NCBI RefSeq assembly: GCF_009192765.1 | Contig: NZ_VOHQ01000001.1 | Span: forward strand, 372,001 to 436,000 | Length of the DNA: 64,000 nucleotides | Origin: Agriterribacter humi | GTDB lineage: Bacteria; Bacteroidota; Bacteroidia; Chitinophagales; Chitinophagaceae | Reading direction: 5' to 3' | Shown: positions 4,115 through 28,473 of the stretch, one piece after another | Layout: every line of letters begins with the position of its first letter | Position numbering within the stretch: the first letter of the stretch is position 1 | Program-made: the position numbers and the translations under genes | Notes under the pieces: model-generated | Database searches by the model: none | What the model was told of the DNA's origin: nothing | What the model saw: the letters and a program-made list of their open reading frames with translations, nothing else

Positions 4115-4167
4115 CTTTAATTTTGTTTAGTTCTCGTAATCATAGAAAGGAGAAGGACAAAGGCCCT

Positions 4168-5085: not shown

Positions 5086-5514
5086 TATAAATTATATTTT
5101 ATATATCATTAAAGGACACAGCTTCGCCTCCTGAGCCCCAAATCAGATATGTACAAGGAAAACATACTTAACGTATTGGTATCTAAAAAATGATGTTGTT
5201 TTCTGCTTTAATTTTATTATTTCCAATCAAATAGAGTTTTTGTAGGATATCTTGACTATGTTTATTTCTTTATTTAAAAACCCAAAGGTTTAATAAATGC
5301 AAATTTATTGCCCAATATCATTCTTTTTATATTATCGGCTTATATTATTTTTTGTAAACCAATGCCATACGGTTTTTTTATACTATCCTTTTTCTTTCTT
5401 CTTTGTTTATCGTGTGTTTTTTAAAAAACAAATTCTTCCATACTGTTTTCTTTCTATAATATTGATATATAATAAATTCTGATCAATAATAATATAGGGT
5501 TTAAAAAGTAGCTC

Positions 5515-5522
5515 TATCTTTG
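5515..5522 (+). promoter_or_regulatory. Candidate -7 promoter box of module A
   Basis: TATCTTTG matches the Bacteroidota -7 consensus TAnnTTTG exactly. No convincing TTG element is found 17-23 bp upstream, so the promoter is only half supported. If used, it would give wza a leader of about 320 nt. Confidence 0.45.
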
Positions 5523-5685: not shown

Positions 5686-5848
5686 TGATGCTAAACCTGC
5701 GTTATTGCTCTGAATACCAGTAACATTAAAATGGGGCTGAGTGGGCGAAGCTTTGTAATTATTGCCACGATGAGAGCAATATTTTTAATTAAAAAGCATA
5801 GCATTGCTACTGCTTTCGTGCTTTTTAACTATATTAAGTCCATTAAAT

Positions 5849-6646
5849 ATGCATTTATCTATGTATAAATTACGATTCCTCTTCTTTTTTATTTCAGTTG
5901 TTCTGCTATTGTTCAGTTCCTGCCGTACAGGTAAGGAGTTGGCATTATTCCAGGATCTGAACTCCGAACAGGATGCCAAAGTACAGCAGGTAAGAACAGC
6001 CGCTTTTGATCCCCTGCGCCTGCAGCCCGACGACCAGTTGCAGATCGTTATCAGCAGCATCAGTCCTGAGGCATCTCAACTGTTCAACCTCATGGGGTCG
6101 GCTGTTATTACAGGCAATAACAATACACAAAACATGCAGAGTGTTTACTCCGTATCTCCATCCGGCAATATTACTATCCCCGTAGTCGGGGATGTAAAAG
6201 TGGCAGGGCTTACCACCGATGAAGCTAAAGCTCAAATCAAAGAAGTGGTAAGTGAATACTTAAAAGACGCTGTTATAAGCGTTACCCTCATCAATTTTCG
6301 TGTTACGGTAATGGGTGAGGTTACCCGCCCATCCACCTTCCAGGTAGCCGGGGAAAAGATCAACGTGCTCCAGGCCATTGGCATGGCCGGTGACCTTACT
6401 GTATTCGCCAAAAGAACGAATATAAAGGTCATCCGTAAAGTTGCCGACAAAGTGGAAGTAGCCCACCTTAACCTTAATAACAGCAGCGTTATGCGTTCCC
6501 CATATTATAACCTCCGTCAAAATGATGTGGTGCTCGTAGAACCCGGTAAACGGAAAGGATTGCAGGCCGAAGGTTTAAACATTATTGTGCCCGCGGCTAC
6601 CAGCATCCTTTCTTTGATCATCGTGGCTATTACCCGTTTCCGTTAA
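5849..6646 (+). CDS. wza: Polysaccharide export lipoprotein, Wza type (copy 1)
   Basis: An outer-membrane polysaccharide export protein of about 265 residues. The signal peptide ends in the lipobox LFSSC, so the mature protein is lipid-anchored at that cysteine. A Poly_export domain follows (DPLRLQPDDQLQIVISS; GNITIPVVGDVKVAGLTTDEA), then an SLBB-type domain (FRVTVMGEVTRPSTFQV) and a C-terminal hydrophobic helix (LNIIVPAATSILSLIIVAI). The protein should form the outer-membrane channel that works with Wzc. The ATG at 5849 is chosen because it gives a compact signal peptide; 5861 is equally possible. From base 5901, within the signal peptide, the gene is nearly identical to the copy at 19808-20614, while the upstream signal sequence is different. 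Confidence 0.88.
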   Translation: MHLSMYKLRFLFFFISVVLLLFSSCRTGKELALFQDLNSEQDAKVQQVRTAAFDPLRLQPDDQLQIVISSISPEASQLFNLMGSAVITGNNNTQNMQSVYSVSPSGNITIPVVGDVKVAGLTTDEAKAQIKEVVSEYLKDAVISVTLINFRVTVMGEVTRPSTFQVAGEKINVLQAIGMAGDLTVFAKRTNIKVIRKVADKVEVAHLNLNNSSVMRSPYYNLRQNDVVLVEPGKRKGLQAEGLNIIVPAATSILSLIIVAITRFR

Positions 6647-9084
6647 GTCTCTCTTTATTTACGCTATCTAAATCATATTGGCTGTGCAAAATAATACCCA
6701 TCTTCCCCCTGTACTCCAAAGTAACCTGCCCGAAGAGTCTGCAGACATCAGGCAGTTGTTGTTTAAAATCCTGCGCAACTGGCCATGGATCGTATTATCG
6801 CTCATAACAACCATTACCGCCGCATGGCTCTATAACCGCTATGCCGAGCCCGTATACAAGGCTACGGCATCCATCATGATCAAGGATGAAAAAAAAGGTG
6901 GCGCCGGGCTGCTGGACAATCCACTGCTTGAAGAACTGAATCTCGGCGGAAGCGGTAAGCTTATTGACAATGAAATTGAAGTGCTCAAAAGTTATGATCT
7001 CATGGAGGATGTGGTGCGTAAGCAGCAATTGTTCCTTGACATCAAAAGCAGGGGCAATCTTACCAACAGGTCCGTTTTTGGTAAAGAGGTTCCGCTCATT
7101 ATACGGGTTGCCAACCCTGATACCATTACCCTGCCTCTGCAATGGAGCATCGCCAGGCAACCCAACGGTAAATGGAATTTAAACTATGGCGGACACAATC
7201 AAGGGCTTTCCCTTACCAGGGGCAGATGGTACAGCATTAACGGACTGCTCTTCCAGGCAACAGATAATCCTGCTTTTTTGATCCATGCCGACAGTGTAAG
7301 CCGGGTCAGTGAATATCTACTGCATTTTAGCCCTGTAAAAACTACCGTTACCAATTATTCAAAAGCATTAATTATACAAGCTGTTAGTAAAACCGCCTCT
7401 ATCATCGGCATGGAACTTACTGATTATAATGATGCCAGGGCTCAGGCTGCTTTGGGCACCCTTATTGATATTTATAACCGCCAGGCTCTCGAAGATAAAA
7501 ACAAGGTAACCACCAATACCCTGGAGTTCTTAAACGACAGGCTGGCAATCATAGAAAAAGAATTACGTACCGTAGAAGGACAGGTAGAACGCTTTAAAAG
7601 CAGTAACCGCATCACCGATGTATCGGCAGAAGCACAGCAATACCTGGACCAGGCAAAGCAGGTTGACCTCCAAAAAGCGGAACAACAAACCCAGTTAAGT
7701 ATTCTTGAATCCCTGGAAAGTAATCTGAAAGCCAACCAGGACAATCCCAAACTTGTACCCTCCGGATCGGGAATCGCTGAACCCTCCCTGGCTGAAATGA
7801 TACAGGCTCACAATCGCCTGGTACTCGAAAAAGAGCGCCAGGCTGAAAGGCTGGGACCTAAGAATCCTATACCTGTTGACCTCGGTAACCAGATCGTTAA
7901 CCTCAGGGCAAGCCTGCTCGCTAATATCGGAAACCTCAAACAGGCTTACCGCATTGCTTTAAACGACATTACCAGCAAGGATGCTGAACTTAATGCCCGC
8001 ATAAGAAATATACCGCAAATACAAAAAAACCTCGTGCAGATACAGCGCGACCAGTCCGTAAAAGAACAGCTTTACTTTTTACTCCTGCAAAAAAGAGAAG
8101 AGTCTGCCATCACCCTGGCTTCTACCACCCCTGATTCCAGGAGTATTGAAAAACCCAGGGGAACCGGCATTGTTAGCCCTAAGAAGGCCCTTATATTGGC
8201 CATCGCCTTTTTATTGGGCTTACTTATTCCCGTTGGCATTATTTACCTCATTAATTACTTCAACAATAAAATTGAAAGCAAAGATGAAGTAGAGCAAAAA
8301 TGTAAAGCCCCCGTACTCGGAGAGATATCCTACGTGAAAAAAGATGCCTCTCCCATTGTGGTGCAAAAAGGAAGCCGCTCCATTGTCGCCGAACAGTTCA
8401 GGGTGATCAGAACCAATATCAGCTTTGCCAGACCAGGGCATTCCCCCAGGATCATCCTGGTTACCTCACACCGGCCCGAAGAAGGCAAGTCGTTTACCAG
8501 CCTTAACCTTGCTGCCAGTTATGCCCTCCTTAATAAAAAAGTGGTGGTGCTTGAATTTGATTTGCGTAAACCCAGGCTCAGCGCAGCCCTCAATATCCAT
8601 TCCGAAGCGGGCATCAGTAATTACCTGGCAGGAAGCACCTCTGCCATTGATGACATTCTGCATGAAGTGCCCGGATTTGAACAACGGTTCTGGCTCCTGC
8701 CTACAGGTCCCATTCCGCCCAATCCCGCTGAGCTTATCCTGGGAGATAATATGAAACAGCTTATGGAGCAACTCAATAAAAAGTTCGATTATATTATATT
8801 GGATACACCCCCTTACGGACTCGTTACCGACTCCTCGCTGCTGGGTGCTCATGCAGACATCAGCATCGTAGTGCTCAGGCAGGGATTTACTTTTAACTGG
8901 GTACTGCAGGAACTCAATAAAAAACTCACAGACAATCCCGCTCAACCCCTCTATACCGTTATTAACAGGGTAGGTGAAAAAAAACAATACGGAAGCTATA
9001 AACGTTACGGATACGGGTACTCAGAATATTTTGACACCCCGGTCAAAAAGAAAAATTGGTGGCGAAAATAAGTGGAAATAAAAC
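5901..9084 (+). repeat. Direct repeat, copy 1 (wza-wzc unit, 3,184 bp)
   Basis: Bases 5901-9084 recur in the same orientation at 19869-23052, exactly 13,968 bp further on. The unit runs from inside the wza signal peptide to 13 bp past the wzc stop. Only three differences were found by reading (at 6783, 6788 and 6802). Flanking sequence diverges abruptly on both sides. Confidence 0.95.
6678..9071 (+). CDS. wzc: Wzc-like polysaccharide chain-length regulator and tyrosine autokinase (copy 1, intact)
   Basis: A 797-residue inner-membrane co-polymerase fused to a bacterial tyrosine kinase. Residues 20-110 hold the first membrane helix (about 33-52) and the Wzz domain. A long coiled-coil and GNVR-type periplasmic part follows, and the second helix is near residue 500 (LILAIAFLLGLLIPVGIIYLI). 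The kinase domain has Walker A EEGKS (Lys604), Walker A' with Asp628 in LEFDLRKP, Walker B with Asp709 in IILDTPP, and a tyrosine-rich C-terminal tail of the kind that is autophosphorylated. It would control polymer length and export with Wza. The best start is TTG at 6678, 31 bp after wza, with GTG at 6684 as an alternative. No ATG lies before the first helix. Confidence 0.9.
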   Translation: MAVQNNTHLPPVLQSNLPEESADIRQLLFKILRNWPWIVLSLITTITAAWLYNRYAEPVYKATASIMIKDEKKGGAGLLDNPLLEELNLGGSGKLIDNEIEVLKSYDLMEDVVRKQQLFLDIKSRGNLTNRSVFGKEVPLIIRVANPDTITLPLQWSIARQPNGKWNLNYGGHNQGLSLTRGRWYSINGLLFQATDNPAFLIHADSVSRVSEYLLHFSPVKTTVTNYSKALIIQAVSKTASIIGMELTDYNDARAQAALGTLIDIYNRQALEDKNKVTTNTLEFLNDRLAIIEKELRTVEGQVERFKSSNRITDVSAEAQQYLDQAKQVDLQKAEQQTQLSILESLESNLKANQDNPKLVPSGSGIAEPSLAEMIQAHNRLVLEKERQAERLGPKNPIPVDLGNQIVNLRASLLANIGNLKQAYRIALNDITSKDAELNARIRNIPQIQKNLVQIQRDQSVKEQLYFLLLQKREESAITLASTTPDSRSIEKPRGTGIVSPKKALILAIAFLLGLLIPVGIIYLINYFNNKIESKDEVEQKCKAPVLGEISYVKKDASPIVVQKGSRSIVAEQFRVIRTNISFARPGHSPRIILVTSHRPEEGKSFTSLNLAASYALLNKKVVVLEFDLRKPRLSAALNIHSEAGISNYLAGSTSAIDDILHEVPGFEQRFWLLPTGPIPPNPAELILGDNMKQLMEQLNKKFDYIILDTPPYGLVTDSSLLGAHADISIVVLRQGFTFNWVLQELNKKLTDNPAQPLYTVINRVGEKKQYGSYKRYGYGYSEYFDTPVKKKNWWRK

Positions 9085-9114
9085 AGATATTAAATTCATT
9101 AACGCTGAAACAGC

Positions 9115-10506
9115 ATGTTTAAAAAGTTCTTTTCCTATGCGGGCATAGAAGGGTTCGCCAAAGGATTGAACTGGTTAACTATTGCGCTTCTGCCTCTTTT
9201 TTTGACTACAGAAGAATATGGTACAGTAGGATTATTGGTCGCCATTGAAGGCATAATGAATACTGTTTTAACATTGGGACAGGGAAGAGCCATCCTGCGG
9301 CATACCATTACCTTCAAAGAAAAAATGCTACCATATGCATTGCAGTTAAACATATTGTCAGTATTGGGCCTTTTTCTTATATGCGTCATTATTTCTTTGT
9401 TCAGAGAAGAGATCATGGGCATTAATTTTATTCCTCACTTTTTTATACTGTTTATAAGTTTATTAATTTACAACCTTTCAGGGTTAATGATTTCACATGC
9501 ACTCGCAACCGATAACCCGGTGTTTTTCAGAAAATCAAGATTATGGTATGCTGTCACCAAATTGCTGGCTGTTATTGGTATATGCTTTTATACAGGTAGC
9601 GGCCTCGGCTATATTTACGGATCCCTGGTAGCGGGCATTATATTTATTTCCCTATTTTATAAAGACATATTTTATCATTTTAATTTCAAAAAAATATTTG
9701 TTTTTGATAAAAACCTTAAATTTTTATTTGTTTTTGGTTTGCCACTGATATTTCATGCATTAAGTGGTAACATTCTAAGTTATGCTGATCGCTTCTTTGT
9801 GGAAGGGTACTTAAACAAAAGCCAACTCGGCATATACACTTTTGCATATTCCCTGGGAAGCAGTATCTTTTTCTTTTATGGATCAGTGGCTACTTATTTT
9901 GAACCATTGGTTTACAAATTTTCCGCAGACAAGGAAAAGTATCATACAATTCTCAAATTCTATTTAACCTTCGTGTTAATGTGCGCATCACTTTTTAGTA
10001 TTGCTATTTTGATCGGCACCAGGTATTTCGCATTTCATCTTATCTCTGAAGATTACATATCGGGATTTACCGTTTTACCAATTATTTTGGGTGCGCATTT
10101 GATGATGCCTTTTTATCACATCAGCAATTACGAACTTACCGTATTAAATAAAACTGCTTTCATAGCTTTTTCTACTATTGGTTCAGCCATTTTAAATATA
10201 TTGTTGAATATCTTTTTTATTCCCAAATGGGGAATTACAGGAGCAGCTTTTAGCACCTTTTTTACCTATATTTTTTTAGCGTTAGCGGGTAATGCCTGGG
10301 CAATAAAAGCTTCAGGTATCTCCAGAAATTATCTGAAATATACTGCCATGCTATTTCTTTTTGTTAACACCGCAGTAATATATGCAAACTTTATGATTAG
10401 TGAATTATGGTTGGCAAGCGGAGGTTTATTTGCATTGTTCATTGTACTTTCTGTTTTAAGCATTAAACAGATTCCCACTTTAAAAATGGCAGTAAATACA
10501 TTATAA
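9115..10506 (+). CDS. Wzx-type lipid-linked oligosaccharide flippase (module A)
   Basis: A 463-residue polytopic membrane protein of the MOP/Wzx family, with about 12-14 hydrophobic segments along its whole length. The N-terminus FAKGLNWLTIALLPLFLTTEEYG is typical of the family. It should flip undecaprenyl-diphosphate-linked repeat units to the periplasm. It starts 43 bp after wzc and just outside the duplicated segment. Its sequence differs from the module B flippase at 23070-24512, which suggests that each module handles a different repeat unit. Family call is firm; substrate is unknown. Confidence 0.83.
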   Translation: MFKKFFSYAGIEGFAKGLNWLTIALLPLFLTTEEYGTVGLLVAIEGIMNTVLTLGQGRAILRHTITFKEKMLPYALQLNILSVLGLFLICVIISLFREEIMGINFIPHFFILFISLLIYNLSGLMISHALATDNPVFFRKSRLWYAVTKLLAVIGICFYTGSGLGYIYGSLVAGIIFISLFYKDIFYHFNFKKIFVFDKNLKFLFVFGLPLIFHALSGNILSYADRFFVEGYLNKSQLGIYTFAYSLGSSIFFFYGSVATYFEPLVYKFSADKEKYHTILKFYLTFVLMCASLFSIAILIGTRYFAFHLISEDYISGFTVLPIILGAHLMMPFYHISNYELTVLNKTAFIAFSTIGSAILNILLNIFFIPKWGITGAAFSTFFTYIFLALAGNAWAIKASGISRNYLKYTAMLFLFVNTAVIYANFMISELWLASGGLFALFIVLSVLSIKQIPTLKMAVNTL

Positions 10507-10564
10507 ACGGACAGGATATTTTAAGAACCGAAGAAAATAGCATCTTCAATAGCATAATACATCA

Positions 10565-11779
10565 ATGGGGAGCAGATACATATTTACAGCCGCATTTTTA
10601 AACTTCATAGGATACTATGTATGCCTGATGCTGCTTTTTTATATGGGTTTCGGGGCTTTGTCATTAAGCGTTTCTATTCCCCTGCGATTACTAATACTGG
10701 CATGTTTAACTGTTTTTTTTTTACAAAACACCAGGTTAAAGGCAAAATCTGAAACATATATTTTCCTGTTTTTTTCACTGATTTACTTAGCCAGGATCTT
10801 TAGCGATGCTTTGAAAGGACTGCCTTACTATTTAGGAACATCAAGGCTGTTACTCTATTATTTATCATTTGACATGATCCCTTTTTTATTGCTAAGCAAT
10901 ATAAAATTTAAGGCGGCCGATTATAATATCATCAGAAAAGGGATTCTACTCTCCGGTTTTCTCTTTGCCATTCTGGCTATCATTTTTTTCAGAAATTATA
11001 TTGGAACAGTCGGACGTCTTACTTCAGAAACAGCAGATATTGAAATGCTTTCTCCCTTAGCATTGTCTTATTGCTCTTCACTTACAATAGGAATTGCAGT
11101 AAGTTACTGGATAGAAAATGTAATATCCTTAAGGCAGAAATTGTTCTTTTTGCTTTTAATTGGACTATCCGTTACTCCATTTTTTCTTGGTTCTTCGCGA
11201 GGGTCACTCATTGCTTTAATTTTACCATTCATTTTTATCTTAATCATAAAAAAAAATGTATTTACCAATTTTCGTACGATGTTGATGCTGGTAATAGGAT
11301 TGATTGGAATTGTTTATTTTTCCGACAAATTTGGAAGCAGTTTAATTGAAAGGTTTACCAGTACAAGTTCGGATATAGCCGAAGGAAATGAATCAGCCGT
11401 AAGAACAATTATGTGGCAAAATGCCTTTAATCAGTTTACCAATAACCCCGTGATGGGAGACAGGCTAAAGCTGGATGGCTTTAATATTTACCCGCATAAT
11501 ATTCTATTTGAAATATTGCAATGCACAGGCTTTCTCGGGTTTATTCCCTTTTCTATTTTACTCATCATAATATTTATGAAATCATTTAAAATTTTAAAAT
11601 ACACCCCGCAATATTCATGGATCAGCATCCTTTTTATTCAGTGCTTTGCACAAAACATGTTTAGCGGAAGTATTTCTTCAGCCAGTTGGCTTATGATGTC
11701 TATGGCTATAGTTGCAGCTTTCGCAAGAAGTGAAAATGAAATTTTTTCGAAAGCAACGGTTTTAAAAAAAATAAAATAA
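10565..11779 (+). CDS. Wzy-like O-antigen/polysaccharide polymerase (module A)
   Basis: A 404-residue membrane protein with about ten hydrophobic helices and a larger hydrophilic loop (about residues 255-310) containing RTIMWQNAFNQFTNNPVMG and then YPHNILFEILQ. This pattern, a periplasmic loop ending in a (P/H)HN motif, is that of the Wzy_C / O-antigen ligase family. In a locus with Wzx, Wza and Wzc, polymerisation of repeat units is the most likely role, although a ligase role cannot be excluded. The next reading frame begins immediately after its stop, and the genes appear co-transcribed. Confidence 0.75.
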   Translation: MGSRYIFTAAFLNFIGYYVCLMLLFYMGFGALSLSVSIPLRLLILACLTVFFLQNTRLKAKSETYIFLFFSLIYLARIFSDALKGLPYYLGTSRLLLYYLSFDMIPFLLLSNIKFKAADYNIIRKGILLSGFLFAILAIIFFRNYIGTVGRLTSETADIEMLSPLALSYCSSLTIGIAVSYWIENVISLRQKLFFLLLIGLSVTPFFLGSSRGSLIALILPFIFILIIKKNVFTNFRTMLMLVIGLIGIVYFSDKFGSSLIERFTSTSSDIAEGNESAVRTIMWQNAFNQFTNNPVMGDRLKLDGFNIYPHNILFEILQCTGFLGFIPFSILLIIIFMKSFKILKYTPQYSWISILFIQCFAQNMFSGSISSASWLMMSMAIVAAFARSENEIFSKATVLKKIK

Positions 11780-11875
11780 ATGTCGCAAGTGAATGCATTG
11801 CCTGATTTCAATCCAAACACCGTTCATATAACTTCATTCAATAACATAATTCCAATCACTTCTTTTAAACTTTAT

Positions 11876-12982
11876 ATGCAGAAAAATTTAAAAATTGATA
11901 TTATAGCAGGTGCCAGACCAAATTTCATGAAAATTGCACCTATTATAGAAGCGATCAAAAGGAATCAGCAAACCGGGGCTGATATTCGATACAGGCTCGT
12001 TCACACAGGCCAGCACTACGATAAAAATATGAGTGACAGCTTTTTTGAGCAATTGGGTATCCCGCATCCTGATGTAAACTTAGGCGCCGGCGGGGGAACA
12101 CAAGCAGAGCAAACAGCCAATATTATGATTGGTTATGAAAAGCTATTGCTACAGGAAAAATCCGATCTCTGTCTTGTAGTAGGCGATGTTACTTCTACCA
12201 TGGCTTGTGCCATTGTTGCACAAAAGCTGCATGTAAAAGTAGGACACGTTGAAGCGGGCATCCGCTCAGGCGACTGGTCAATGCCTGAAGAAATTAACCG
12301 CATGGTAACAGACAGCATTACCAATTACTTTTTCACAACCACTACAATTGCAAATGACAATTTGAAAAAAAATGGTATTGAGGATGACCGTATTTATCTT
12401 GTAGGCAATACCATGATAGATACATTGTTAAAAAACAGGGAACGCTTTCAACAACCTTCTATTTGGAAAGAGATAGGATTGGAAAGGGGTCAATATATGG
12501 TTATGACATTGCACCGCCCGGCAAATGTTGATGAAGAAAAAAAGTTGAAAGAATTAATGAATGAAATCATTACGCATTCCAGGGGATTACCATTGATCTT
12601 TCCAGTACATCCCAGAACAGCAAAAATCCTTCAAAACATGGGAATTCAGCACCCATCGTTGCACATGATCGAACCTTTGGGTTATTTAGAGTTTAACTAC
12701 CTGGTGGAAAAAGCAAAAGCCGTAATAACAGATTCAGGCGGGATAACTGAAGAGACGACTGTAATGGGCGTACCTTGCATGACATTAAGAGACAATACCG
12801 AAAGACCTGAAACGATTACGTTAGGAACGAATGAATTGATCGGAACTGACCCGAAAGCAATAAAACCGGCTATGGAAAAATTATTCGGGGGAAATTGGAA
12901 AAAAGGAAGTATTCCTGATTTATGGGATGGCCATGCCGCTGAAAGAATAATAAAACATCTTTTATCGTTAAACCGTTTATGA
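11876..12982 (+). CDS. wecB: UDP-N-acetylglucosamine 2-epimerase (non-hydrolysing), module A
   Basis: A 368-residue enzyme interconverting UDP-GlcNAc and UDP-ManNAc. Family motifs are present: IDIIAGARPNFMKIAP at the N-terminus, HTGQHYDKNMS, VEAGIRSGDWSMPEEINR, TLHRPANVD, PVHPRT and the TDSGGITEET motif. The ATG at 11876 is preferred because it aligns with the second copy at 31019 and with the family; a start at 11780 would add 32 residues without family resemblance. It overlaps the next gene by 4 bp (ATGA). The two wecB-like proteins in this window are similar over their full length but not identical, so this is an older duplication than the wza-wzc repeat. Confidence 0.9.
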   Translation: MQKNLKIDIIAGARPNFMKIAPIIEAIKRNQQTGADIRYRLVHTGQHYDKNMSDSFFEQLGIPHPDVNLGAGGGTQAEQTANIMIGYEKLLLQEKSDLCLVVGDVTSTMACAIVAQKLHVKVGHVEAGIRSGDWSMPEEINRMVTDSITNYFFTTTTIANDNLKKNGIEDDRIYLVGNTMIDTLLKNRERFQQPSIWKEIGLERGQYMVMTLHRPANVDEEKKLKELMNEIITHSRGLPLIFPVHPRTAKILQNMGIQHPSLHMIEPLGYLEFNYLVEKAKAVITDSGGITEETTVMGVPCMTLRDNTERPETITLGTNELIGTDPKAIKPAMEKLFGGNWKKGSIPDLWDGHAAERIIKHLLSLNRL

Positions 12983-14052
12983 GAAATAAAAAAGTGCTTA
13001 TAATCTATAATAAGGTCTGGTCTTACAGGCTTAAGATTTTTGATATTTTAAATCAGCACTACGACCTGACGGTTGCTTATTCCGATAAAAGTTTTGTAGA
13101 CAAAAAATTTGATTTCAAAACAGTATATACACCAGGCTATGACATTGGCCCCCTGTTTTTTCATAAGACCAATTTAAAAAAATTAGCCGGGGATTATGAT
13201 GTTGTCATTGCAATATCCAATGTCAGGTGGATATCCTTAATGCTTTTATCATTGAGAAGAAGGAAATTTAAATTTATATTGTGGGGCATTGGCGTATCCG
13301 CCAGTTATGAAAACAAGCTGGATTCAAAGACTACCTGGGACAGGGTTCGGTTCTTCTTTGCAAAAAAGGCAGATGCTATACTATTTTACAGCAATTATCC
13401 TATCAAAAAATATATCGAAAACGGAATTGAGTCCAAAAAGCTATTCGTTGCCAATAATACGGTTGCTATTGATGAACATTTTAATCTGGTTAAAACAGAA
13501 AATTCAAAAACCGACTTTTTATTCATTGGTACATTATATCCTCAAAAGGGCATTGATATATTACTGAATGCATACATTGAACTAAACAAAACCATTGCAC
13601 TTCCCACTTTACAAATCATAGGGGCAGGCCCCATGGAAAGCACGCTAAAAGAACGGATTGAGGTGAACAAATTACAGGATAAAGTAATTCTTCATGGAGC
13701 CATTTATGATCAAAAAATACTAATAAACTTCTTTTCAAAAAGCCTGGTTTGTATTTCTCCTACACAGGCAGGGCTTTCCGTATTGATGAGTATGGGCTAT
13801 GGTGTGCCCTTTCTGACAAGCTTTGATGCAATAACAGGGGGTGAGATTTTTAATATAAAAAAAGATGAGAATGGATTTATCTATAACGGAACTGAAGAAG
13901 ATTTAAAAAAGACAATTATCTGGATCATTAACAATCGGGATAAAGTTTTGGCCATGGGCAGAAATGCTAAGGCGCATTATGATCAGTTTAGAAAGCCTTC
14001 TGATATGGCAAATGCTATTAAAGATTCCATAGAATATGTACTTAATAAATAA
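12979..14052 (+). CDS. Glycosyltransferase family 4 protein
   Basis: A 357-residue GT-B fold transferase. The C-terminal half shows FIGTLYPQKGIDILLNAY, then IIGAGPMESTLKE and a nucleotide-sugar-binding region around SPTQAGLSVLMSMGYGVPF, which matches the retaining GT4 layout. The N-terminal half is basic and less conserved. Translation is probably coupled to wecB through a 4-bp overlap, so a ManNAc-derived donor is possible but unproven. Confidence 0.75.
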   Translation: MRNKKVLIIYNKVWSYRLKIFDILNQHYDLTVAYSDKSFVDKKFDFKTVYTPGYDIGPLFFHKTNLKKLAGDYDVVIAISNVRWISLMLLSLRRRKFKFILWGIGVSASYENKLDSKTTWDRVRFFFAKKADAILFYSNYPIKKYIENGIESKKLFVANNTVAIDEHFNLVKTENSKTDFLFIGTLYPQKGIDILLNAYIELNKTIALPTLQIIGAGPMESTLKERIEVNKLQDKVILHGAIYDQKILINFFSKSLVCISPTQAGLSVLMSMGYGVPFLTSFDAITGGEIFNIKKDENGFIYNGTEEDLKKTIIWIINNRDKVLAMGRNAKAHYDQFRKPSDMANAIKDSIEYVLNK

Positions 14053-14120
14053 GAAGGAATGCTTTGTCATTGCCAAAGCTTTATACTTCTGCATTAACAT
14101 ATCTCATAATCAGATAATGA

Positions 14121-14786
14121 ATGTGTAGCCTGATCAAAAATTATTTTAGTCTTAATCGTCTGAAAAAACAATATCAGAACAAAAAAATATCTATTTTGAT
14201 GTTCTACGATAAAGAATCAGTCGTTTCCAATAAATCACGCATTCAACGATTTGTAATTTTAAGAAAATGCGTTGTTTCCGATTATTCGTATATAGGTTAC
14301 AACACCAATATTTACAATGCGAGTATAGGAAAATTTTGTTCCATTTCAAAAGATGTATGTATAGGACTTCCATCACATCCCACAAAATTCATATCCACGT
14401 CTCCCCTGTTCGTTAATATACAAAATGGCACTGGCTATTCATGGTCAAAACAAGACCTGTTTAATTCAGTTCCTGAAAAAGTAGTGATTGGTAATGATGT
14501 CTGGATTGGGATGAAATCTACCATAATGGGAGGCATTACTATTGGTAATGGTGCAATCATAGCAGCTCATTCTGTTGTAACAAAAGATGTTCCGCCTTAT
14601 GCCATAGTAGGAGGCGTTCCGTCTAAAATAATTAAATACAGGTTTGATGATAGTATTATTGAGACTTTGCAAAAATCGGAATGGTGGAATCGTTCCGATG
14701 ATTTTCTTCAAAAAAATATAACATCCTTTCAGGAAGAATTAAGTACGGAAAATGCAGACCGGTTGACCGGTATCCTCTTAAAGTAA
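14121..14786 (+). CDS. CatB-like hexapeptide-repeat acyltransferase
   Basis: A 221-residue left-handed beta-helix acetyltransferase of the xenobiotic/sugar (CatB, WbbJ) type. Residues 60-185 contain hexapeptide repeats (SYIGYNTNIYNASIGKFCSIS; VVIGNDVWIGMKSTIMGGITIGNGAIIAAHSVVTKD), followed by the family's typical PPYAIVGGVPSKIIKYRF. It probably acetylates a hydroxyl or amino group on a sugar of the repeat unit using acetyl-CoA. It lies 68 bp after the glycosyltransferase and 27 bp before the UDP-L-FucNAc pathway genes. The exact acceptor cannot be read from sequence. Confidence 0.78.
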   Translation: MCSLIKNYFSLNRLKKQYQNKKISILMFYDKESVVSNKSRIQRFVILRKCVVSDYSYIGYNTNIYNASIGKFCSISKDVCIGLPSHPTKFISTSPLFVNIQNGTGYSWSKQDLFNSVPEKVVIGNDVWIGMKSTIMGGITIGNGAIIAAHSVVTKDVPPYAIVGGVPSKIIKYRFDDSIIETLQKSEWWNRSDDFLQKNITSFQEELSTENADRLTGILLK

Positions 14787-14813
14787 TGACAGCATAAAAT
14801 AATAACATACCAT

Positions 14814-15833
14814 ATGTTCGGTAATAAAAAACTTCTCATAACAGGTGGCACCGGTTCTTTCGGCAACGCAGTTCTCAACCGGTTTCTCAACAGCAATTTT
14901 GACGAAATACGAATATTCAGCCGTGATGAAAAAAAACAGGACGATATGCGGAAAGTATATACCGATCCGCGTGTAAAATTCTATATCGGTGATGTTCGCG
15001 AATACAATTCGGTAGAAAATGCCGTAAGAGGTGTTGATTATATTTTCCATGCTGCTGCACTGAAACAGGTTCCTTCCTGCGAGTTTTTCCCCCTCGAAGC
15101 AGTAAAAACCAATGTAGAAGGAACGGCTAATGTTTTAGATGCAGCAATAAGAAACGGCGTAAAGAATGCAGTAGTGTTAAGTACCGACAAAGCTGTATAC
15201 CCCATTAATGCAATGGGCATGAGCAAAGCCATGATGGAAAAGGTAATGGTTGCAAAATCCAGAACAGTTTCCGCTAACCAGCTCGTACTTTCGGGTACGC
15301 GTTACGGCAATGTAATGGCTTCACGCGGTTCTGTTATTCCCCTGTTTATTGACCAGATCAAAGCAGGCAAACCGATTACCATTACCGATCCTAATATGAC
15401 CCGCTTTATGATGACGCTTGAAGATGCAGTAGATCTTGTATTATATGCTTTCACTAATGCAGAGCCGGGCGATATTTTTGTACAAAAGGCCCCGGCTACT
15501 ACAATTGAATTGCTGGCAACAGCTCTAAAAGAATTATATAATGCGGGCAATGAAATTAAAATTATAGGCACCCGCCATGGCGAAAAATTATATGAAACCC
15601 TGGTAAACAGGGAGGAAATGACAAAAGCCATTGATATGGGAGAATATTTCAGGATTCCGGCAGATAACAGGGGACTCAATTATGAGCAGTACTTTTCCGT
15701 GGGCGATACAGATGTTTCAAAAATAGAAGATTACCATTCTCATAATACCAATCAAATTGGGCTGGAGGAAACCAAAAAATTACTATTAAGACTGGAGATG
15801 ATTCAAAAGGACTTAAATTTAATACATGCCTGA
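14814..15833 (+). CDS. fnlA: UDP-GlcNAc 4,6-dehydratase/5-epimerase (FnlA/CapE/WbjB type)
   Basis: A 339-residue extended SDR enzyme. The NAD-binding motif TGGTGSFGNAV is at the N-terminus, followed by FSRDEKKQDDMR, which is highly typical of this branch, then HAAALKQVPSCEFFP and the LSTDKAVYPINAMGMSK segment carrying the altered active site (M-x-x-x-K in place of Y-x-x-x-K). It catalyses the first step from UDP-GlcNAc towards UDP-N-acetyl-L-fucosamine. The FnlB and FnlC homologues follow downstream, which makes the pathway call much firmer than the single gene would. It overlaps the next gene by 8 bp. Confidence 0.88.
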   Translation: MFGNKKLLITGGTGSFGNAVLNRFLNSNFDEIRIFSRDEKKQDDMRKVYTDPRVKFYIGDVREYNSVENAVRGVDYIFHAAALKQVPSCEFFPLEAVKTNVEGTANVLDAAIRNGVKNAVVLSTDKAVYPINAMGMSKAMMEKVMVAKSRTVSANQLVLSGTRYGNVMASRGSVIPLFIDQIKAGKPITITDPNMTRFMMTLEDAVDLVLYAFTNAEPGDIFVQKAPATTIELLATALKELYNAGNEIKIIGTRHGEKLYETLVNREEMTKAIDMGEYFRIPADNRGLNYEQYFSVGDTDVSKIEDYHSHNTNQIGLEETKKLLLRLEMIQKDLNLIHA

Positions 15834-16260
15834 GATAAAGATGTATGAGGGTGGCGCTTATGCGGACGAAAGGGGAAGAATATCTTTTGTAAATGATTTT
15901 ACTTTTAAGGAAGTAAAAAGATGTTATCATATTATGCATTCCCATACCGAAACAATCAGAGCCTGGCAGGGACATCGCATTGAACATAAATATTTTTTTG
16001 TGCCGCATGGCAAATTTCTTTTGGCCTGGGTATGCATTGACGACTGGAATACGCCATCCGTTCACCTGAAAGCTTCTCATAGCATATTATCAGAAAATGA
16101 GCCGTGTGTTTTGTGTATCCCACCGGGGTATGCCAATGGTATAAAAGCCTTAATGCCAGGTTCAGTGCTTAGTGTATATTCTGACCTTGATCTTGCCGCC
16201 TCGGAAAACGACCGCTGGTCTTTTGATCAGTCGCTATGGCTTGACTGGTCCTTATTTTAA
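15826..16260 (+). CDS. Small cupin sugar-nucleotide isomerase/epimerase-like protein (WxcM/FdtA-like)
   Basis: A 144-residue single-domain cupin. It opens with KMYEGGAYADERGRISFVNDF and contains HSHTETIRAWQGHRIEHKYFFV, a pattern shared by small dTDP-sugar 3,4-isomerases and 3,5-epimerase relatives. It is translationally coupled to fnlA (8-bp overlap) and ends 14 bp before the fnlB homologue, so it is embedded in the UDP-L-FucNAc set. FnlB itself has a cupin tail, so the extra cupin could assist or alter the 3-epimerisation or 4-keto step. Its actual reaction is not established from sequence. Confidence 0.65.
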   Translation: MPEIKMYEGGAYADERGRISFVNDFTFKEVKRCYHIMHSHTETIRAWQGHRIEHKYFFVPHGKFLLAWVCIDDWNTPSVHLKASHSILSENEPCVLCIPPGYANGIKALMPGSVLSVYSDLDLAASENDRWSFDQSLWLDWSLF

Positions 16261-16274
16261 TATAAGCAGCAACG

Positions 16275-17393
16275 ATGAAAAAAATAGGAATAACGGGACA
16301 AAATGGATTTGCAGGCACTTATCTCTTCAACGCCATAAGCCTGCTGAAAGATGAATTCCAACTTATCCCCTTTGAAAAATCTTTTTTTGAAAACGAAAAT
16401 CAATTACAGGATTGGGTAAAGCAATGCGATACGATAGTTCACCTGGCCGCTATGAACCGGCATACGGATCCGCAGGTAATTCATGATACCAATATTAGCC
16501 TTATAAAAAAACTCCTGGCTTCACTGGAAATAACACAGACCAAACCGCAAATTATTTTTTCTTCATCCACCCAGGAAGAAAGAGATAATCCCTATGGCAA
16601 ATCAAAGAAAGAAGGAAGAAATTTATTGGCAGCCTGGGCCGAAGCACGTGGAGGAAAGTTTGCGGGACTCATCGTTCCCAATGTGTTTGGCCCGTTTGGC
16701 AAACCTTTTTATAACTCCGTAGTAGCTACTTTTTGTCACCAATTGTGCAGCAACCAGGAACCTAAAATAGATACGGACGGCCTTATTAAACTAATATACG
16801 TAGGTGAGCTGGCTAAGGTGATTATTGACGCCATAAGAAATGACAGCCATAACCCGGAATGGAAAGTTGAGCATACCAGCGAATACCATGTATCGCAAAT
16901 ATTATTGCAATTACAGGAATTTAAAAAGCAATATTTCGAAAACGGGATATTTCCTTCACTCCAAAACAAATTCAGTGTTGACCTGTTCAACACCTTTAGG
17001 AGTTATATAAACCTTAAACATTATTTTCCATATAAGCTAAAGCAAAATACTGATAACAGGGGAACATTCGTGGAACTGATAAAATTACAACAGGGAGGAC
17101 AAATATCATTTTCCACAACGCACCCTGGCATTACGCGCGGAAATCATTTTCATACCCGCAAAATTGAAAGATTTGCCGTAATAAAAGGGAAAGCGCTGAT
17201 TCAACTGCGCAGATACAATACAGATGAAGTGCTCAACTTTGAATTAAGCGGAGATGAAGCATCTTATGTGGATATGCCGGTATGGTATACGCACAACATT
17301 ACAAATACAGGTACCGATGAATTGTATACGATATTCTGGATCAATGAATTTTTTGATCCTGCCGACCCGGATACCTATTTCGACACCGTTTAA
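16275..17393 (+). CDS. fnlB: UDP-2-acetamido-2,6-dideoxy-hexulose reductase with C-terminal cupin (FnlB/CapF/WbjC type)
   Basis: A 372-residue two-domain protein. Residues 1-240 are an SDR domain starting KKIGITGQNGFAGTYL with an NPYGKSKKEGR active-site segment (Tyr-x-x-x-Lys). Residues 250-372 form a cupin domain with DNRGTFVELIK and ITRGNHFHTRKIERFAV, including the His residues expected to bind metal. CapF-type enzymes carry out the second step of UDP-L-FucNAc synthesis, with C3 epimerisation by the cupin and C4 reduction by the SDR part. Its position between the FnlA and FnlC homologues agrees fully. Confidence 0.87.
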   Translation: MKKIGITGQNGFAGTYLFNAISLLKDEFQLIPFEKSFFENENQLQDWVKQCDTIVHLAAMNRHTDPQVIHDTNISLIKKLLASLEITQTKPQIIFSSSTQEERDNPYGKSKKEGRNLLAAWAEARGGKFAGLIVPNVFGPFGKPFYNSVVATFCHQLCSNQEPKIDTDGLIKLIYVGELAKVIIDAIRNDSHNPEWKVEHTSEYHVSQILLQLQEFKKQYFENGIFPSLQNKFSVDLFNTFRSYINLKHYFPYKLKQNTDNRGTFVELIKLQQGGQISFSTTHPGITRGNHFHTRKIERFAVIKGKALIQLRRYNTDEVLNFELSGDEASYVDMPVWYTHNITNTGTDELYTIFWINEFFDPADPDTYFDTV

Positions 17394-17414
17394 TAAGCAT
17401 TACATCTTCACCTA

Positions 17415-18560
17415 ATGAATACAATTACAAAAAAACTGAAAGTGCTTACGGTAGTGGGTACCCGGCCGGAAATCATACGGCTGTCCAGGGTGCTGGCAAA
17501 ATTAGATGAATCTGAAGCTATAGATCATGTATTGGTACACACCGGGCAGAACTACGATTATGAACTGAACCAGATTTTCTTTGAAGATCTTGAACTGAGA
17601 AAACCAGATTATTTTTTGAACGCAGCAGGAAAAAATGCCACTACAACTGTTGGTCAGATATTGATCAATATTGATCCCGTCCTGGAAGAAGAACAACCCG
17701 ATGCATTTTTAGTACTGGGAGATACCAATAGCTGCTTATGCGCCATCCCTGCAAAAAAAAGAAAGATACCGGTATTTCATATGGAAGCCGGCAACCGTTG
17801 CTTTGATCAGCGCGTACCTGAAGAAACCAACCGGAAAATTGTTGATCATGTAAGCGATATCAATCTCACGTATTCCGATATAGCGAGGGAATACCTGCTC
17901 AGAGAGGGATTACCACCAGACAGAATAATTAAAACAGGAAGTCCCATGTACGAAGTGCTGCATCATTATATGCCTAAAATTGAAAGTTCAGATATACTTC
18001 AGCAACTTTCCCTTGAAAAAGGCAGTTACTTTGTTGTGTCAGTACACCGGGAAGAGAACATCAATGCTGAAAAAAACTTCAACAATCTTGTCAAATCATT
18101 GAATAGCATCGCGGAAATATTCCGGTTGCCTGTAATTGTATCTGCGCATCCCAGAACAAGAAATATGATTAAGGAAAAGAACATCGTATTTAATGACCTG
18201 GTAAAATTGCAAAAGCCATTCGGATTAAGCGACTATCTATCGCTACAGGTAAATGCCAGAGCGGTTCTTTCTGACAGTGGAACCATCTCAGAAGAATCAT
18301 CCATACTTAATTTTCCGGCATTAAATATCCGGGAAGCACATGAGCGGCCTGAAGCAATGGAAGAAGCTGCTGTAATGATGGTAGGGTTAAACCCTGAACG
18401 CATACTCCAGGGATTAAAACAACTGGAGTACCAGCAAAAAGAACCCCGTAATTTCAGGCCGGTTTCAGACTATATGATGCCCAATGTTTCAGACAAAGTG
18501 GTTAGAATAATTATTTCTTATGTAGATTATATTAAAAGAGTAACCTGGCAAAACTTTTAG
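17415..18560 (+). CDS. fnlC: UDP-sugar 2-epimerase, FnlC/CapG/WbjD type
   Basis: A 381-residue enzyme of the WecB superfamily but clearly distinct from the two true wecB genes here: it starts LKVLTVVGTRPEIIRLS and has HMEAGNRCFDQRVPEETNR, VSVHREENIN, SAHPRTR and SDSGTISEESS. This is the branch that converts UDP-N-acetyl-L-6-deoxytalosamine to UDP-N-acetyl-L-fucosamine, the third and last step of the pathway. The stop is one base before the ATG of the next glycosyltransferase, as in loci where an L-FucNAc transferase follows. Confidence 0.87.
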   Translation: MNTITKKLKVLTVVGTRPEIIRLSRVLAKLDESEAIDHVLVHTGQNYDYELNQIFFEDLELRKPDYFLNAAGKNATTTVGQILINIDPVLEEEQPDAFLVLGDTNSCLCAIPAKKRKIPVFHMEAGNRCFDQRVPEETNRKIVDHVSDINLTYSDIAREYLLREGLPPDRIIKTGSPMYEVLHHYMPKIESSDILQQLSLEKGSYFVVSVHREENINAEKNFNNLVKSLNSIAEIFRLPVIVSAHPRTRNMIKEKNIVFNDLVKLQKPFGLSDYLSLQVNARAVLSDSGTISEESSILNFPALNIREAHERPEAMEEAAVMMVGLNPERILQGLKQLEYQQKEPRNFRPVSDYMMPNVSDKVVRIIISYVDYIKRVTWQNF

Positions 18561-18561
18561 C

Positions 18562-19749
18562 ATGCGTGTACTCTTTTTGCTTTTATACCATCCGGAGCCG
18601 TACGAATCATCGAACCTATATGCAGACCTGATAGATGAATTCGAAAAAAACGGGCATGAAGTAACAGTAGTGAGCGCCGCTAAGGAAAATCAACCCTCAA
18701 CTTTAAAAAGGGAGAAGGATATAGAAGTATTGCGGGTTAAAACACAGAAAATTTTTAATGTACACCCTCTTTTAAAGGGAATAGCCACCGTGCGTATGCC
18801 TTACCAGTTTAAAAGGGCAATTAAAAAATACTTATCAAAATATGAGTTCGACCTGGTTGTTACGCCCACTCCCCCTATAACTTTTGTAGACGTTGTAGTA
18901 TGGCTTAAAAAAAAACACCCATTACAATCGTATCTTATCCTCCGTGATATATTTCCTCAAAATGCACGCGACCTGGGAATGATGAAGAACCCGCTTCTTT
19001 TTAATTATTTCAGGAAAAAAGAAAAAAAGCTGTACCGTTATTCCGATTATATTGGGTGCATGTCACAGGGCAACATAAATTATGTCATACGCCATAACCC
19101 TGAAGTTCTTACCAGGAAACTCCTTCTCCTGCCCAACTGGCAAAAGGCAGAAGCCTTGTCTGAAAGAGATGAATCGGTAAAAAAGCAATACGGATTAGCA
19201 GGAAAGTACGTGGCCATTTTTGGAGGAAATATTGGTGAGCCCCAAAAAATAGAAAATATAGTAAGCCTCGCCAGGGCGTATCTGTATAATAATCATATTA
19301 TATTCCTGGTCATGGGAAACGGTACAAGAAGAAAGTATCTCGAACAAATGGCAGCGGATTATGCTTTAACCAATTTAGTAATAAAAGATGCTGTTCCCCG
19401 GCAGGATTATCAAAAATTGGTATGCAGTGCGGATGTTGGTCTAATTTCGTTAAGCGAAAAATTTACCATTCCCAACATCCCTTCTAAAACTTTGTCCTAT
19501 TTTAATGCCAGGATACCCGTGCTGGCTGCGATAGACGCTAACACGGATTACGGAGCCTTGCTGGAAAAAGCGGGTGCAGGATTATGGTCGTTAACGGGAG
19601 ATATGGAAAAATATAAACAAAATTTCGATACGCTTTATAATGACTCTGCATTACGTAAACAAATGGGAGAAAATGGCTATAATTACTTGTTTAAATATCT
19701 TACAGTAAATATTACCTATCAGACTATCCTTAATCATATCCATCAATGA
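18562..19749 (+). CDS. Glycosyltransferase family 4 protein, WbuB-like (possible L-FucNAc transferase)
   Basis: A 395-residue GT-B protein starting MRVLFLLLYHPEPYESSNLYA. The central LILRDIFPQNARDLGMM and the C-terminal IFGGNIGEPQKIEN and IPNIPSKTLSYFNARIPVL segments are characteristic of the WbuB branch, in which L-FucNAc transferases are found. It lies one base after the FnlC homologue, so use of UDP-L-FucNAc is a reasonable inference. It is the last gene of module A before the repeated wza-wzc unit starts again. Confidence 0.78.
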   Translation: MRVLFLLLYHPEPYESSNLYADLIDEFEKNGHEVTVVSAAKENQPSTLKREKDIEVLRVKTQKIFNVHPLLKGIATVRMPYQFKRAIKKYLSKYEFDLVVTPTPPITFVDVVVWLKKKHPLQSYLILRDIFPQNARDLGMMKNPLLFNYFRKKEKKLYRYSDYIGCMSQGNINYVIRHNPEVLTRKLLLLPNWQKAEALSERDESVKKQYGLAGKYVAIFGGNIGEPQKIENIVSLARAYLYNNHIIFLVMGNGTRRKYLEQMAADYALTNLVIKDAVPRQDYQKLVCSADVGLISLSEKFTIPNIPSKTLSYFNARIPVLAAIDANTDYGALLEKAGAGLWSLTGDMEKYKQNFDTLYNDSALRKQMGENGYNYLFKYLTVNITYQTILNHIHQ

Positions 19750-19807
19750 AATAATTCTTTAAAAGAATATGAATTATCAGATGAATCCCTGCAATTTTGC
19801 TGCGAAT

Positions 19808-20614
19808 ATGTCAATAAATATTAAAGCTATACCTTATATATGCAAATCACTATTGGGGCTATTGGCTATTCTGCTATTGTTCAGTTCCTGCCGTACAGGT
19901 AAGGAGTTGGCATTATTCCAGGATCTGAACTCCGAACAGGATGCCAAAGTACAGCAGGTAAGAACAGCCGCTTTTGATCCCCTGCGCCTGCAGCCCGACG
20001 ACCAGTTGCAGATCGTTATCAGCAGCATCAGTCCTGAGGCATCTCAACTGTTCAACCTCATGGGGTCGGCTGTTATTACAGGCAATAACAATACACAAAA
20101 CATGCAGAGTGTTTACTCCGTATCTCCATCCGGCAATATTACTATCCCCGTAGTCGGGGATGTAAAAGTGGCAGGGCTTACCACCGATGAAGCTAAAGCT
20201 CAAATCAAAGAAGTGGTAAGTGAATACTTAAAAGACGCTGTTATAAGCGTTACCCTCATCAATTTTCGTGTTACGGTAATGGGTGAGGTTACCCGCCCAT
20301 CCACCTTCCAGGTAGCCGGGGAAAAGATCAACGTGCTCCAGGCCATTGGCATGGCCGGTGACCTTACTGTATTCGCCAAAAGAACGAATATAAAGGTCAT
20401 CCGTAAAGTTGCCGACAAAGTGGAAGTAGCCCACCTTAACCTTAATAACAGCAGCGTTATGCGTTCCCCATATTATAACCTCCGTCAAAATGATGTGGTG
20501 CTCGTAGAACCCGGTAAACGGAAAGGATTGCAGGCCGAAGGTTTAAACATTATTGTGCCCGCGGCTACCAGCATCCTTTCTTTGATCATCGTGGCTATTA
20601 CCCGTTTCCGTTAA
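19808..20614 (+). CDS. wza: Polysaccharide export lipoprotein, Wza type (copy 2)
   Basis: About 268 residues. From the second half of the signal peptide onward the sequence is the same as copy 1 (lipobox LLFSSC, export domain, SLBB domain, C-terminal helix). The first part of the signal peptide is unrelated (MSINIKAIPYICKSLLGLL). The chosen ATG at 19808 gives a normal lipoprotein signal; an in-frame ATG at 19769 is less likely. It lies 58 bp after the preceding glycosyltransferase, so this copy is probably transcribed from module A's promoter and lacks copy 1's long leader. It should still yield a mature lipoprotein identical to copy 1. Confidence 0.87.
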   Translation: MSINIKAIPYICKSLLGLLAILLLFSSCRTGKELALFQDLNSEQDAKVQQVRTAAFDPLRLQPDDQLQIVISSISPEASQLFNLMGSAVITGNNNTQNMQSVYSVSPSGNITIPVVGDVKVAGLTTDEAKAQIKEVVSEYLKDAVISVTLINFRVTVMGEVTRPSTFQVAGEKINVLQAIGMAGDLTVFAKRTNIKVIRKVADKVEVAHLNLNNSSVMRSPYYNLRQNDVVLVEPGKRKGLQAEGLNIIVPAATSILSLIIVAITRFR

Positions 20615-23052
20615 GTCTCTCTTTATTTACGCTATCTAAATCATATTGGCTGTGCAAAATAATACCCATCTTCCCCCTGTACTCCAAAGTAACCTGCCCG
20701 AAGAGTCTGCAGACATCAGGCAGTTGTTGTTTAAAATCCTGCGCAACTGGACATGAATCGTATTATCGCGCATAACAACCATTACCGCCGCATGGCTCTA
20801 TAACCGCTATGCCGAGCCCGTATACAAGGCTACGGCATCCATCATGATCAAGGATGAAAAAAAAGGTGGCGCCGGGCTGCTGGACAATCCACTGCTTGAA
20901 GAACTGAATCTCGGCGGAAGCGGTAAGCTTATTGACAATGAAATTGAAGTGCTCAAAAGTTATGATCTCATGGAGGATGTGGTGCGTAAGCAGCAATTGT
21001 TCCTTGACATCAAAAGCAGGGGCAATCTTACCAACAGGTCCGTTTTTGGTAAAGAGGTTCCGCTCATTATACGGGTTGCCAACCCTGATACCATTACCCT
21101 GCCTCTGCAATGGAGCATCGCCAGGCAACCCAACGGTAAATGGAATTTAAACTATGGCGGACACAATCAAGGGCTTTCCCTTACCAGGGGCAGATGGTAC
21201 AGCATTAACGGACTGCTCTTCCAGGCAACAGATAATCCTGCTTTTTTGATCCATGCCGACAGTGTAAGCCGGGTCAGTGAATATCTACTGCATTTTAGCC
21301 CTGTAAAAACTACCGTTACCAATTATTCAAAAGCATTAATTATACAAGCTGTTAGTAAAACCGCCTCTATCATCGGCATGGAACTTACTGATTATAATGA
21401 TGCCAGGGCTCAGGCTGCTTTGGGCACCCTTATTGATATTTATAACCGCCAGGCTCTCGAAGATAAAAACAAGGTAACCACCAATACCCTGGAGTTCTTA
21501 AACGACAGGCTGGCAATCATAGAAAAAGAATTACGTACCGTAGAAGGACAGGTAGAACGCTTTAAAAGCAGTAACCGCATCACCGATGTATCGGCAGAAG
21601 CACAGCAATACCTGGACCAGGCAAAGCAGGTTGACCTCCAAAAAGCGGAACAACAAACCCAGTTAAGTATTCTTGAATCCCTGGAAAGTAATCTGAAAGC
21701 CAACCAGGACAATCCCAAACTTGTACCCTCCGGATCGGGAATCGCTGAACCCTCCCTGGCTGAAATGATACAGGCTCACAATCGCCTGGTACTCGAAAAA
21801 GAGCGCCAGGCTGAAAGGCTGGGACCTAAGAATCCTATACCTGTTGACCTCGGTAACCAGATCGTTAACCTCAGGGCAAGCCTGCTCGCTAATATCGGAA
21901 ACCTCAAACAGGCTTACCGCATTGCTTTAAACGACATTACCAGCAAGGATGCTGAACTTAATGCCCGCATAAGAAATATACCGCAAATACAAAAAAACCT
22001 CGTGCAGATACAGCGCGACCAGTCCGTAAAAGAACAGCTTTACTTTTTACTCCTGCAAAAAAGAGAAGAGTCTGCCATCACCCTGGCTTCTACCACCCCT
22101 GATTCCAGGAGTATTGAAAAACCCAGGGGAACCGGCATTGTTAGCCCTAAGAAGGCCCTTATATTGGCCATCGCCTTTTTATTGGGCTTACTTATTCCCG
22201 TTGGCATTATTTACCTCATTAATTACTTCAACAATAAAATTGAAAGCAAAGATGAAGTAGAGCAAAAATGTAAAGCCCCCGTACTCGGAGAGATATCCTA
22301 CGTGAAAAAAGATGCCTCTCCCATTGTGGTGCAAAAAGGAAGCCGCTCCATTGTCGCCGAACAGTTCAGGGTGATCAGAACCAATATCAGCTTTGCCAGA
22401 CCAGGGCATTCCCCCAGGATCATCCTGGTTACCTCACACCGGCCCGAAGAAGGCAAGTCGTTTACCAGCCTTAACCTTGCTGCCAGTTATGCCCTCCTTA
22501 ATAAAAAAGTGGTGGTGCTTGAATTTGATTTGCGTAAACCCAGGCTCAGCGCAGCCCTCAATATCCATTCCGAAGCGGGCATCAGTAATTACCTGGCAGG
22601 AAGCACCTCTGCCATTGATGACATTCTGCATGAAGTGCCCGGATTTGAACAACGGTTCTGGCTCCTGCCTACAGGTCCCATTCCGCCCAATCCCGCTGAG
22701 CTTATCCTGGGAGATAATATGAAACAGCTTATGGAGCAACTCAATAAAAAGTTCGATTATATTATATTGGATACACCCCCTTACGGACTCGTTACCGACT
22801 CCTCGCTGCTGGGTGCTCATGCAGACATCAGCATCGTAGTGCTCAGGCAGGGATTTACTTTTAACTGGGTACTGCAGGAACTCAATAAAAAACTCACAGA
22901 CAATCCCGCTCAACCCCTCTATACCGTTATTAACAGGGTAGGTGAAAAAAAACAATACGGAAGCTATAAACGTTACGGATACGGGTACTCAGAATATTTT
23001 GACACCCCGGTCAAAAAGAAAAATTGGTGGCGAAAATAAGTGGAAATAAAAC
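19869..23052 (+). repeat. Direct repeat, copy 2 (wza-wzc unit, 3,184 bp)
   Basis: Second copy of the unit at 5901-9084. The three observed substitutions are C to A at 20751, G to A at 20756 and T to G at 20770, all within the segment encoding the first membrane helix of Wzc. Homologous recombination between the copies could delete or amplify the intervening 13,968 bp. Confidence 0.95.
20646..23039 (+). pseudogene. wzc: Wzc-like tyrosine autokinase, copy 2, with a premature stop at codon 37
   Basis: Relative to copy 1, codon 37 (Trp) is TGA at 20754-20756, and the neighbouring changes are Pro36 to Thr and Leu42 to Arg. All three fall in or beside the first transmembrane helix. The next in-frame ATG is at 20844 (codon 67), from which a 731-residue product identical to the rest of copy 1 could be made, including the periplasmic part, second helix and complete kinase. 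Such a product would lack the first helix and so have wrong membrane topology. It may be a dead gene, a truncated product, or a sequencing or assembly error in a repeat. The reading frame downstream is otherwise undamaged, which suggests a recent event. Confidence 0.75.
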
Positions 23053-24512: not shown

Positions 24513-24535
24513 AAAAATATATTAAATATATTAAA

Positions 24536-26958: not shown

Positions 26959-27047
26959 TTGCGGTCCTCTTCCCTATTTCCATAAACCGGAAAACTCAAT
27001 TAAGACAGGGTATATGTTTCAACAATGTTTCCTGACCGGGTACAATA

Positions 27048-28458: not shown

Positions 28459-28473
28459 AATTTATCAATCAAG

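Follow-up and report, generated by a model that had tools for sequence, protein, structure and literature searches.

The window analysed here, a stretch of 64,000 nucleotides from Agriterribacter humi (genome G000), contains a long series of polysaccharide genes, the main ones of which run in a single direction from 5861 to 33372. The series begins with wza copy A (5861..6646, + strand), whose product has the Pfam domains Poly_export and SLBB and a lipoprotein-like signal peptide, and wzc copy A (6678..9071, +), which encodes an uninterrupted protein of 797 aa with Wzz, GNVR and AAA_31. These are followed by module A (9115..19749, +), in which Pfam recognized a flippase, a polymerase, a UDP-GlcNAc 2-epimerase, transferases and three L-FucNAc-type genes; the three (14814-18560, +) have domains fitting L-FucNAc synthesis, and the last transferase gene of the module lies at 18562-19749 (+). 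We presume the gene names fnl and wbuB to apply within module A. A second wza, copy B (19808..20614, +), has an in-frame ATG at either 19769 or 19808, of which 19808 was selected because it gives a shorter signal peptide. It is joined by wzc copy B (20646..23039, +) and then by module B (23070..33372, +), for which Pfam identified a flippase, transferases, a polymerase and a 2-epimerase of its own, together with two proteins that have no Pfam hit.

The left flank (3473..5085, − strand) encodes a GT2 glycosyltransferase and a PglD-type protein and is also present in the related genomes G006, G010, G009 and G001, and the right flank (33445..34625, +), with an RlmH-type SPOUT methyltransferase and a rhomboid protein, was found in G006, G010 and G009. 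A flippase, a polymerase and Wza-type and Wzc-type proteins are thus clustered by Pfam as in Wzx/Wzy-type polysaccharide loci, and by its predicted gene content the locus is a pair of such surface-polysaccharide modules arranged head to tail. The first-pass annotation had placed different flippases, polymerases and transferases behind each wza-wzc copy, and the Pfam hits bear this out. The modules presumably make two distinct glycans and use the exporter in common.

Upstream of copy A, a promoter-like block (5456..5522, +) ending in TATCTTTG (5515-5522) is conserved in an alignment of five species. Ahead of copy B, the roughly 360-420 bp inspected in the window, G010 and G009 contain no TANNTTTG, so that copy B looks like a mid-operon pair, and both modules are probably read as one long transcription unit. 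A general scan returned 61 promoter-like sites versus 57.6 in shuffled sequences and 29 terminator-like sites versus 17.0, several of the latter being intragenic. Cross-species alignment and a motif search also revealed a conserved leader motif before wza copy A (5732..5756, +), and the motif search detected an inverted copy in the leader preceding the divergent transferase gene (5116..5140, −). The motif, CTNAGNNGGCGAAGCYNTGT, therefore brackets the intergenic region as an inverted pair, each arm lying in the leader of one of two divergent sets of polysaccharide genes. Across 12 genomes of the genus it gave 11 matches and the reversed-pattern control none; eight matches precede wza or the divergent transferase gene, one lies just before a NusG-family gene in G010 and two are elsewhere in G007. 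It is also present upstream of wza in G004. We take the motif to be reminiscent of the ops/JUMPstart element of RfaH.

Base-by-base alignment of the two wza-wzc copies (A, 5901..9084, +; B, 19869..23052, +; offset 13,968) gave three mismatches in 3,184 aligned bases, at 6783/20751, 6788/20756 and 6802/20770, and each copy comprises most of wza and the complete wzc. The edges of the repeat are sharp, with matches in 50-bp bins beyond it falling to 7-19 of 50 on the left and 6-21 of 50 on the right. A near-perfect 3,184-bp duplication with three substitutions and unrelated flanks, as initially described, is thereby confirmed. Identity sets in 40 nt into wza, counted from the start codon of copy A at 5861, and ends 13 nt beyond the wzc stop codon; since it begins within the signal peptide, the two Wza pre-proteins differ at their start and have the mature part in common. 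A repeat scan of the whole window (seed 16, minimum 40) found the wza-wzc pair as its one direct repeat family and no inverted repeat of comparable size. Genome-wide (5.69 Mb, draft, 34 contigs), the repeat has two DNA matches, which are copies A and B themselves.

The three differences all fall within 20 bp of wzc (20751-20770 in copy B; probability 9.5e-5 for randomly placed sites), and all of them change the protein. The middle one creates an in-frame TGA at codon 37 of wzc copy B (20754-20756), a codon that reads TGG in all ten other aligned wzc sequences, copy A included. Except for copy A, no donor for the patch was found genome-wide at up to three mismatches (the reversed-pattern control also gave one forward match), and hairpin analysis of the patch detected none of note (z 0.70 and 0.66). 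The stop codon as assembled may be a real lesion or a consensus error. Clustered in this way and including a stop, the differences resemble a local consensus error in a draft genome of 34 contigs, and one could go further and suppose that the assembler made the second copy, or its sameness. Both junctions, however, match the gene order of the separately assembled G009, in which the copies differ by about one base in five, and we consider an artefact of this extent very unlikely. The 20-bp patch alone could be an error even if the twin is genuine, and the identity of the window's own copies could have been inflated by assembly.

To place the twin among relatives, wzc was searched in 58 genomes including the window's, each of which gave a match (E <= 0.001), many of them to the ATPase part only; the close matches were those of congeners. 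Two other genomes, G010 and G009, hold the twin within one contig with module A between the copies, and both have the same flanks and the same intervening fnl-transferase genes as the window. In G001 the contigs break off at the repeat (shared bases: 127 on the wzc side, at least 126 on the wza side), as a collapsed repeat would leave them, and G011 has a 3,175-bp contig holding wza-wzc alone; these contig ends suggest a twin in both. The gene fnlB occurs in five of the 12 genus genomes (the window's, G010, G009, G001 and G011), which are also the five with a twin seen or suggested. Above 50% identity, the remaining seven congeners each gave a single hit to wzc and a single hit to wza. A family-wide scan (394 genomes, best two candidates per genome) found, among the matches listed, no same-contig pair less than 20 kb apart outside the genus. 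A search for 16S rRNA (assembly type) gave a match in one of six genomes and none in the window's, the sequence searched being perhaps incomplete.

Phylogenetic trees were computed for wza, the N-terminal half of wzc, its C-terminal half and the whole alignment; G001 was left out because the repeat is missing from its assembly, as were G002, G004 and G007, which have a single copy with 55-58% wzc identity. In all four trees the copies cluster by species and not by position. Constraining either the A copies or the B copies of the three species to group together was rejected in each alignment, with p values (A / B) of 0.006 / 0.002 for wza, 3e-6 / 7e-6 for the N-half, 8e-56 / 7e-9 for the C-half and 1e-78 / 1e-54 for the whole. 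The grouping holds for the window and G010; the G009 pair is weakly supported by wza (89/94) and by the N-half of wzc (75/92), and strongly only by the C-half and the whole alignment (100/100 each). Synonymous positions tell the same story, as four-fold sites are alike at 472/472 positions between the window copies, 431/451 in G010 and 202/386 in G009, while 33-55% are common between species in the four species pairs computed. The complete agreement at 472 sites implies sameness of the DNA and not of the protein alone.

The shared arrangement in other species, together with the clustering by species, favours recurrent gene conversion over one very recent duplication, the two options that the first-pass annotation had left side by side. 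A duplication confined to this strain would readily account for the near-identity of the window copies, yet it is contradicted by G010 and G009, whose twins enclose related module A genes, and by the suggested twin in G001 and G011, unless each species duplicated the pair independently at the same place. We therefore regard it as highly improbable. Gene order likewise places the duplication before the species splits, with the caveat that the tree of module A differs from that of the flanks. The accompanying idea that the shared export machinery is kept the same is supported as regards conversion, but wzc copy B carries its stop as assembled.

The copies of G010 form a mosaic, with all 47 differences at positions 52-534 of a 3,152-bp repeat and none in the last 2,618; when they are aligned to the full unit of the window the count rises to 60, through 12 further differences at its very start and one at the last base. 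None of 2,000 shuffles reached its longest concordant run. The same test was not significant for G009 (171/2,000) and uninformative for the window (199/2,000), and low counts also arose in some between-species pairs (50/2,000 for copy A of G010 with copy A of G009). In G009 the copies are furthest apart, mostly diverged and 79% identical overall: only 33 of 97 four-fold sites agree in wza, which is as different as between species, and the wzc C-half is closer at 110/162, as if converted later. G009 thus resembles the case of two clearly diverged copies that had been named as counter-evidence to exchange, except that its wzc C-half bears signs of exchange.

Loss of module A is suggested by G006, where contigs C99 and C44 overlap by 55 bases. 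Its copy-A left flank (75.6% over 657 aligned columns) leads into a single wza-wzc, behind which come a different module and the right flank that it shares with the window. No fnlB match was found in G006, and its best match to the last module A transferase reaches only 25%. The flank-protein tree, built from a concatenation of eight proteins for four genomes and five left-flank proteins only for G001, places G006 beside the window species (100/99). Since G011 falls outside the window-G006 group in the wza-wzc tree and yet has module A genes, we consider loss in G006 likelier than descent from a single-copy ancestor. The G006 arrangement is such as a crossover deletion of module A would leave. 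Its junction is not a clean scar; the roughly 470 bp separating wzc from the flippase gave no convincing match to the window (best E 0.11). As a separate observation, the segment L049:3785-4256 of contig C44, between wzc and the flippase, looks by eye like a putative decayed sugar-epimerase gene. Recombination between the copies had been predicted to delete or amplify module A; the A-less, single-copy G006 matches the former, and amplification was not seen.

The modules themselves have been reshuffled. With G011 left out of both trees, four module A genes (fnl and transferase) give (G000,G010),(G009,G001) with support 100/98, which conflicts with the flank tree ((G010,G009),(G001,(G000,G006))), indicating that simple descent along with the locus does not explain module A and that modules were exchanged. 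Sharing is also patchy: the window has flippase and polymerase A and most of module B in common with G009, the 2-epimerase and following genes with G001, and part of module B with the single-copy G003. Only 27-47% of four-fold sites in module A genes are alike between species, so the exchange is old relative to the sameness of the window copies and homogenization is needed either way.

The conflicting module A tree, the existence of an A-less relative and an identity that covers almost the whole alignable unit are also what one would expect if module A and one wza-wzc were excised by crossover and re-entered from a member of the same species by a single crossover at wza-wzc, leaving a young re-duplication in each lineage. 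Were a diverged copy to enter by a single crossover, the copies should differ on either side of the crossover point, and those of G010 differ at one end only; with the graded divergence of G009 added, both genomes need conversion as well. Loss and regain is consequently an unlikely account of the data as a whole.

The first-pass annotation also proposed a switchable surface polysaccharide, for which we found no support. A true phase switch, in which surface glycans are toggled within a population by the repeat or by the inverted arms flanking the promoter region, could make use of the long direct repeats and of the 25-nt inverted pair, and G006 shows the deleted state. Deletion alone is one-way without resupply, though, G006 is another species and not a variant of this strain, and a Pfam scan of 40 window proteins found no recombinase family (four of the 40 have no Pfam hit at all). 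Capsule loci of Bacteroides fragilis have invertible promoters. Here an invertible promoter between 5116-5140 and 5732-5756 was set aside: complementarity between the arms is only 84%, all five aligned species have the promoter-like box in one orientation, and the motif also occurs upstream of wza in G004. In our judgement the inverted pair is better read as a leader element of two divergent operons, and a phase switch is very unlikely.

Together, our results favour, with a probability of about 0.78, a twin wza-wzc that is older than several species splits and has been kept alike by recurrent recombination. In a locus laid out as promoter, wza-wzc, module A, wza-wzc and module B, homologous recombination between the copies, mainly gene conversion and by inference of the RecA type, would homogenize wza-wzc inside each genome over the stretch where the copies align, which extends from the mature part of wza to where wzc ends. 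The adjoining glycan-specific modules would diverge and be exchanged, and a crossover between the copies would delete module A to leave promoter, wza-wzc and module B, as in G006. More tentatively, the wza-wzc unit may serve across the species group as a homology anchor, by which glycan modules are looped out or taken in behind a ready exporter. If true, surface glycans would evolve as cassettes, with conversion keeping each compatible with one export machine.

The closest known kind is the long-lasting concerted evolution of prokaryotic paralogues such as tuf and amoCAB (Wang and Chen 2018, PMC6053082), whose defining features are largely present here. As in those paralogues, the copies of one genome group despite an older duplication and shared gene order, synonymous sites are alike too, and several genes of one machine convert together. 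As a difference, the copies here front two different, exchangeable modules, and the terms wzc, export and polysaccharide have no occurrence in the main text of PMC6053082.

Among capsule loci, the cap-b duplication of Haemophilus influenzae has tandem capsule units with one bexA copy truncated and another intact (PMC6535587), and it resembles the present locus in its repeated capsule segment and one interrupted export-gene copy (here as assembled). There the whole locus is duplicated and flanked by IS1016, whereas here the repeat is limited to wza-wzc and stands between different modules; the Pfam scan of 40 window proteins gave no transposase family, and the IS-flanked, whole-locus arrangement of the Hib type is thus not seen. 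Meningococcal Regions D and D' (PMC5349592) also form a repeated segment beside capsule genes with one copy holding a truncated gene, but that repeat consists of galE-type sugar genes at the two ends of the island and not of export genes heading two modules. Bacteroides fragilis similarly has several surface-polysaccharide loci in one Bacteroidota genome, its multiple capsule loci having UpxY (PMC7593976); unlike there, the two NusG-family genes of the window's genome sit on other contigs.

A search of the open-licence PMC literature for wza/wzc or capsule export loci that are duplicated, repeated or converted brought up nothing relevant; the ingredients are known, and their combination was not found described there. 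As read from the alignments and trees, the locus is a well-supported case of concerted evolution of a polysaccharide exporter pair before two exchangeable glycan modules. It amounts to a natural experiment: inside one genome the shared export genes remain uniform while the sugar-specific genes next to them diverge and are swapped. The pace and tract length of conversion can be measured by comparing relatives that have reached different stages, with copies near-identical, mosaic, mostly diverged or single. Such loci are broken or collapsed in draft assemblies, and twin polysaccharide loci may for this reason be counted too rarely.

Further features were observed within the window. The 2-epimerase genes of modules A (11780-12982) and B (31019-32092) form a second related pair, with 73% protein identity. 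The module B neighbours at 27135-28325 and 28534-29685, which have no Pfam hit, share 45-48% identity. At 54255-56402 the window encodes a polysaccharide lyase of family 8.
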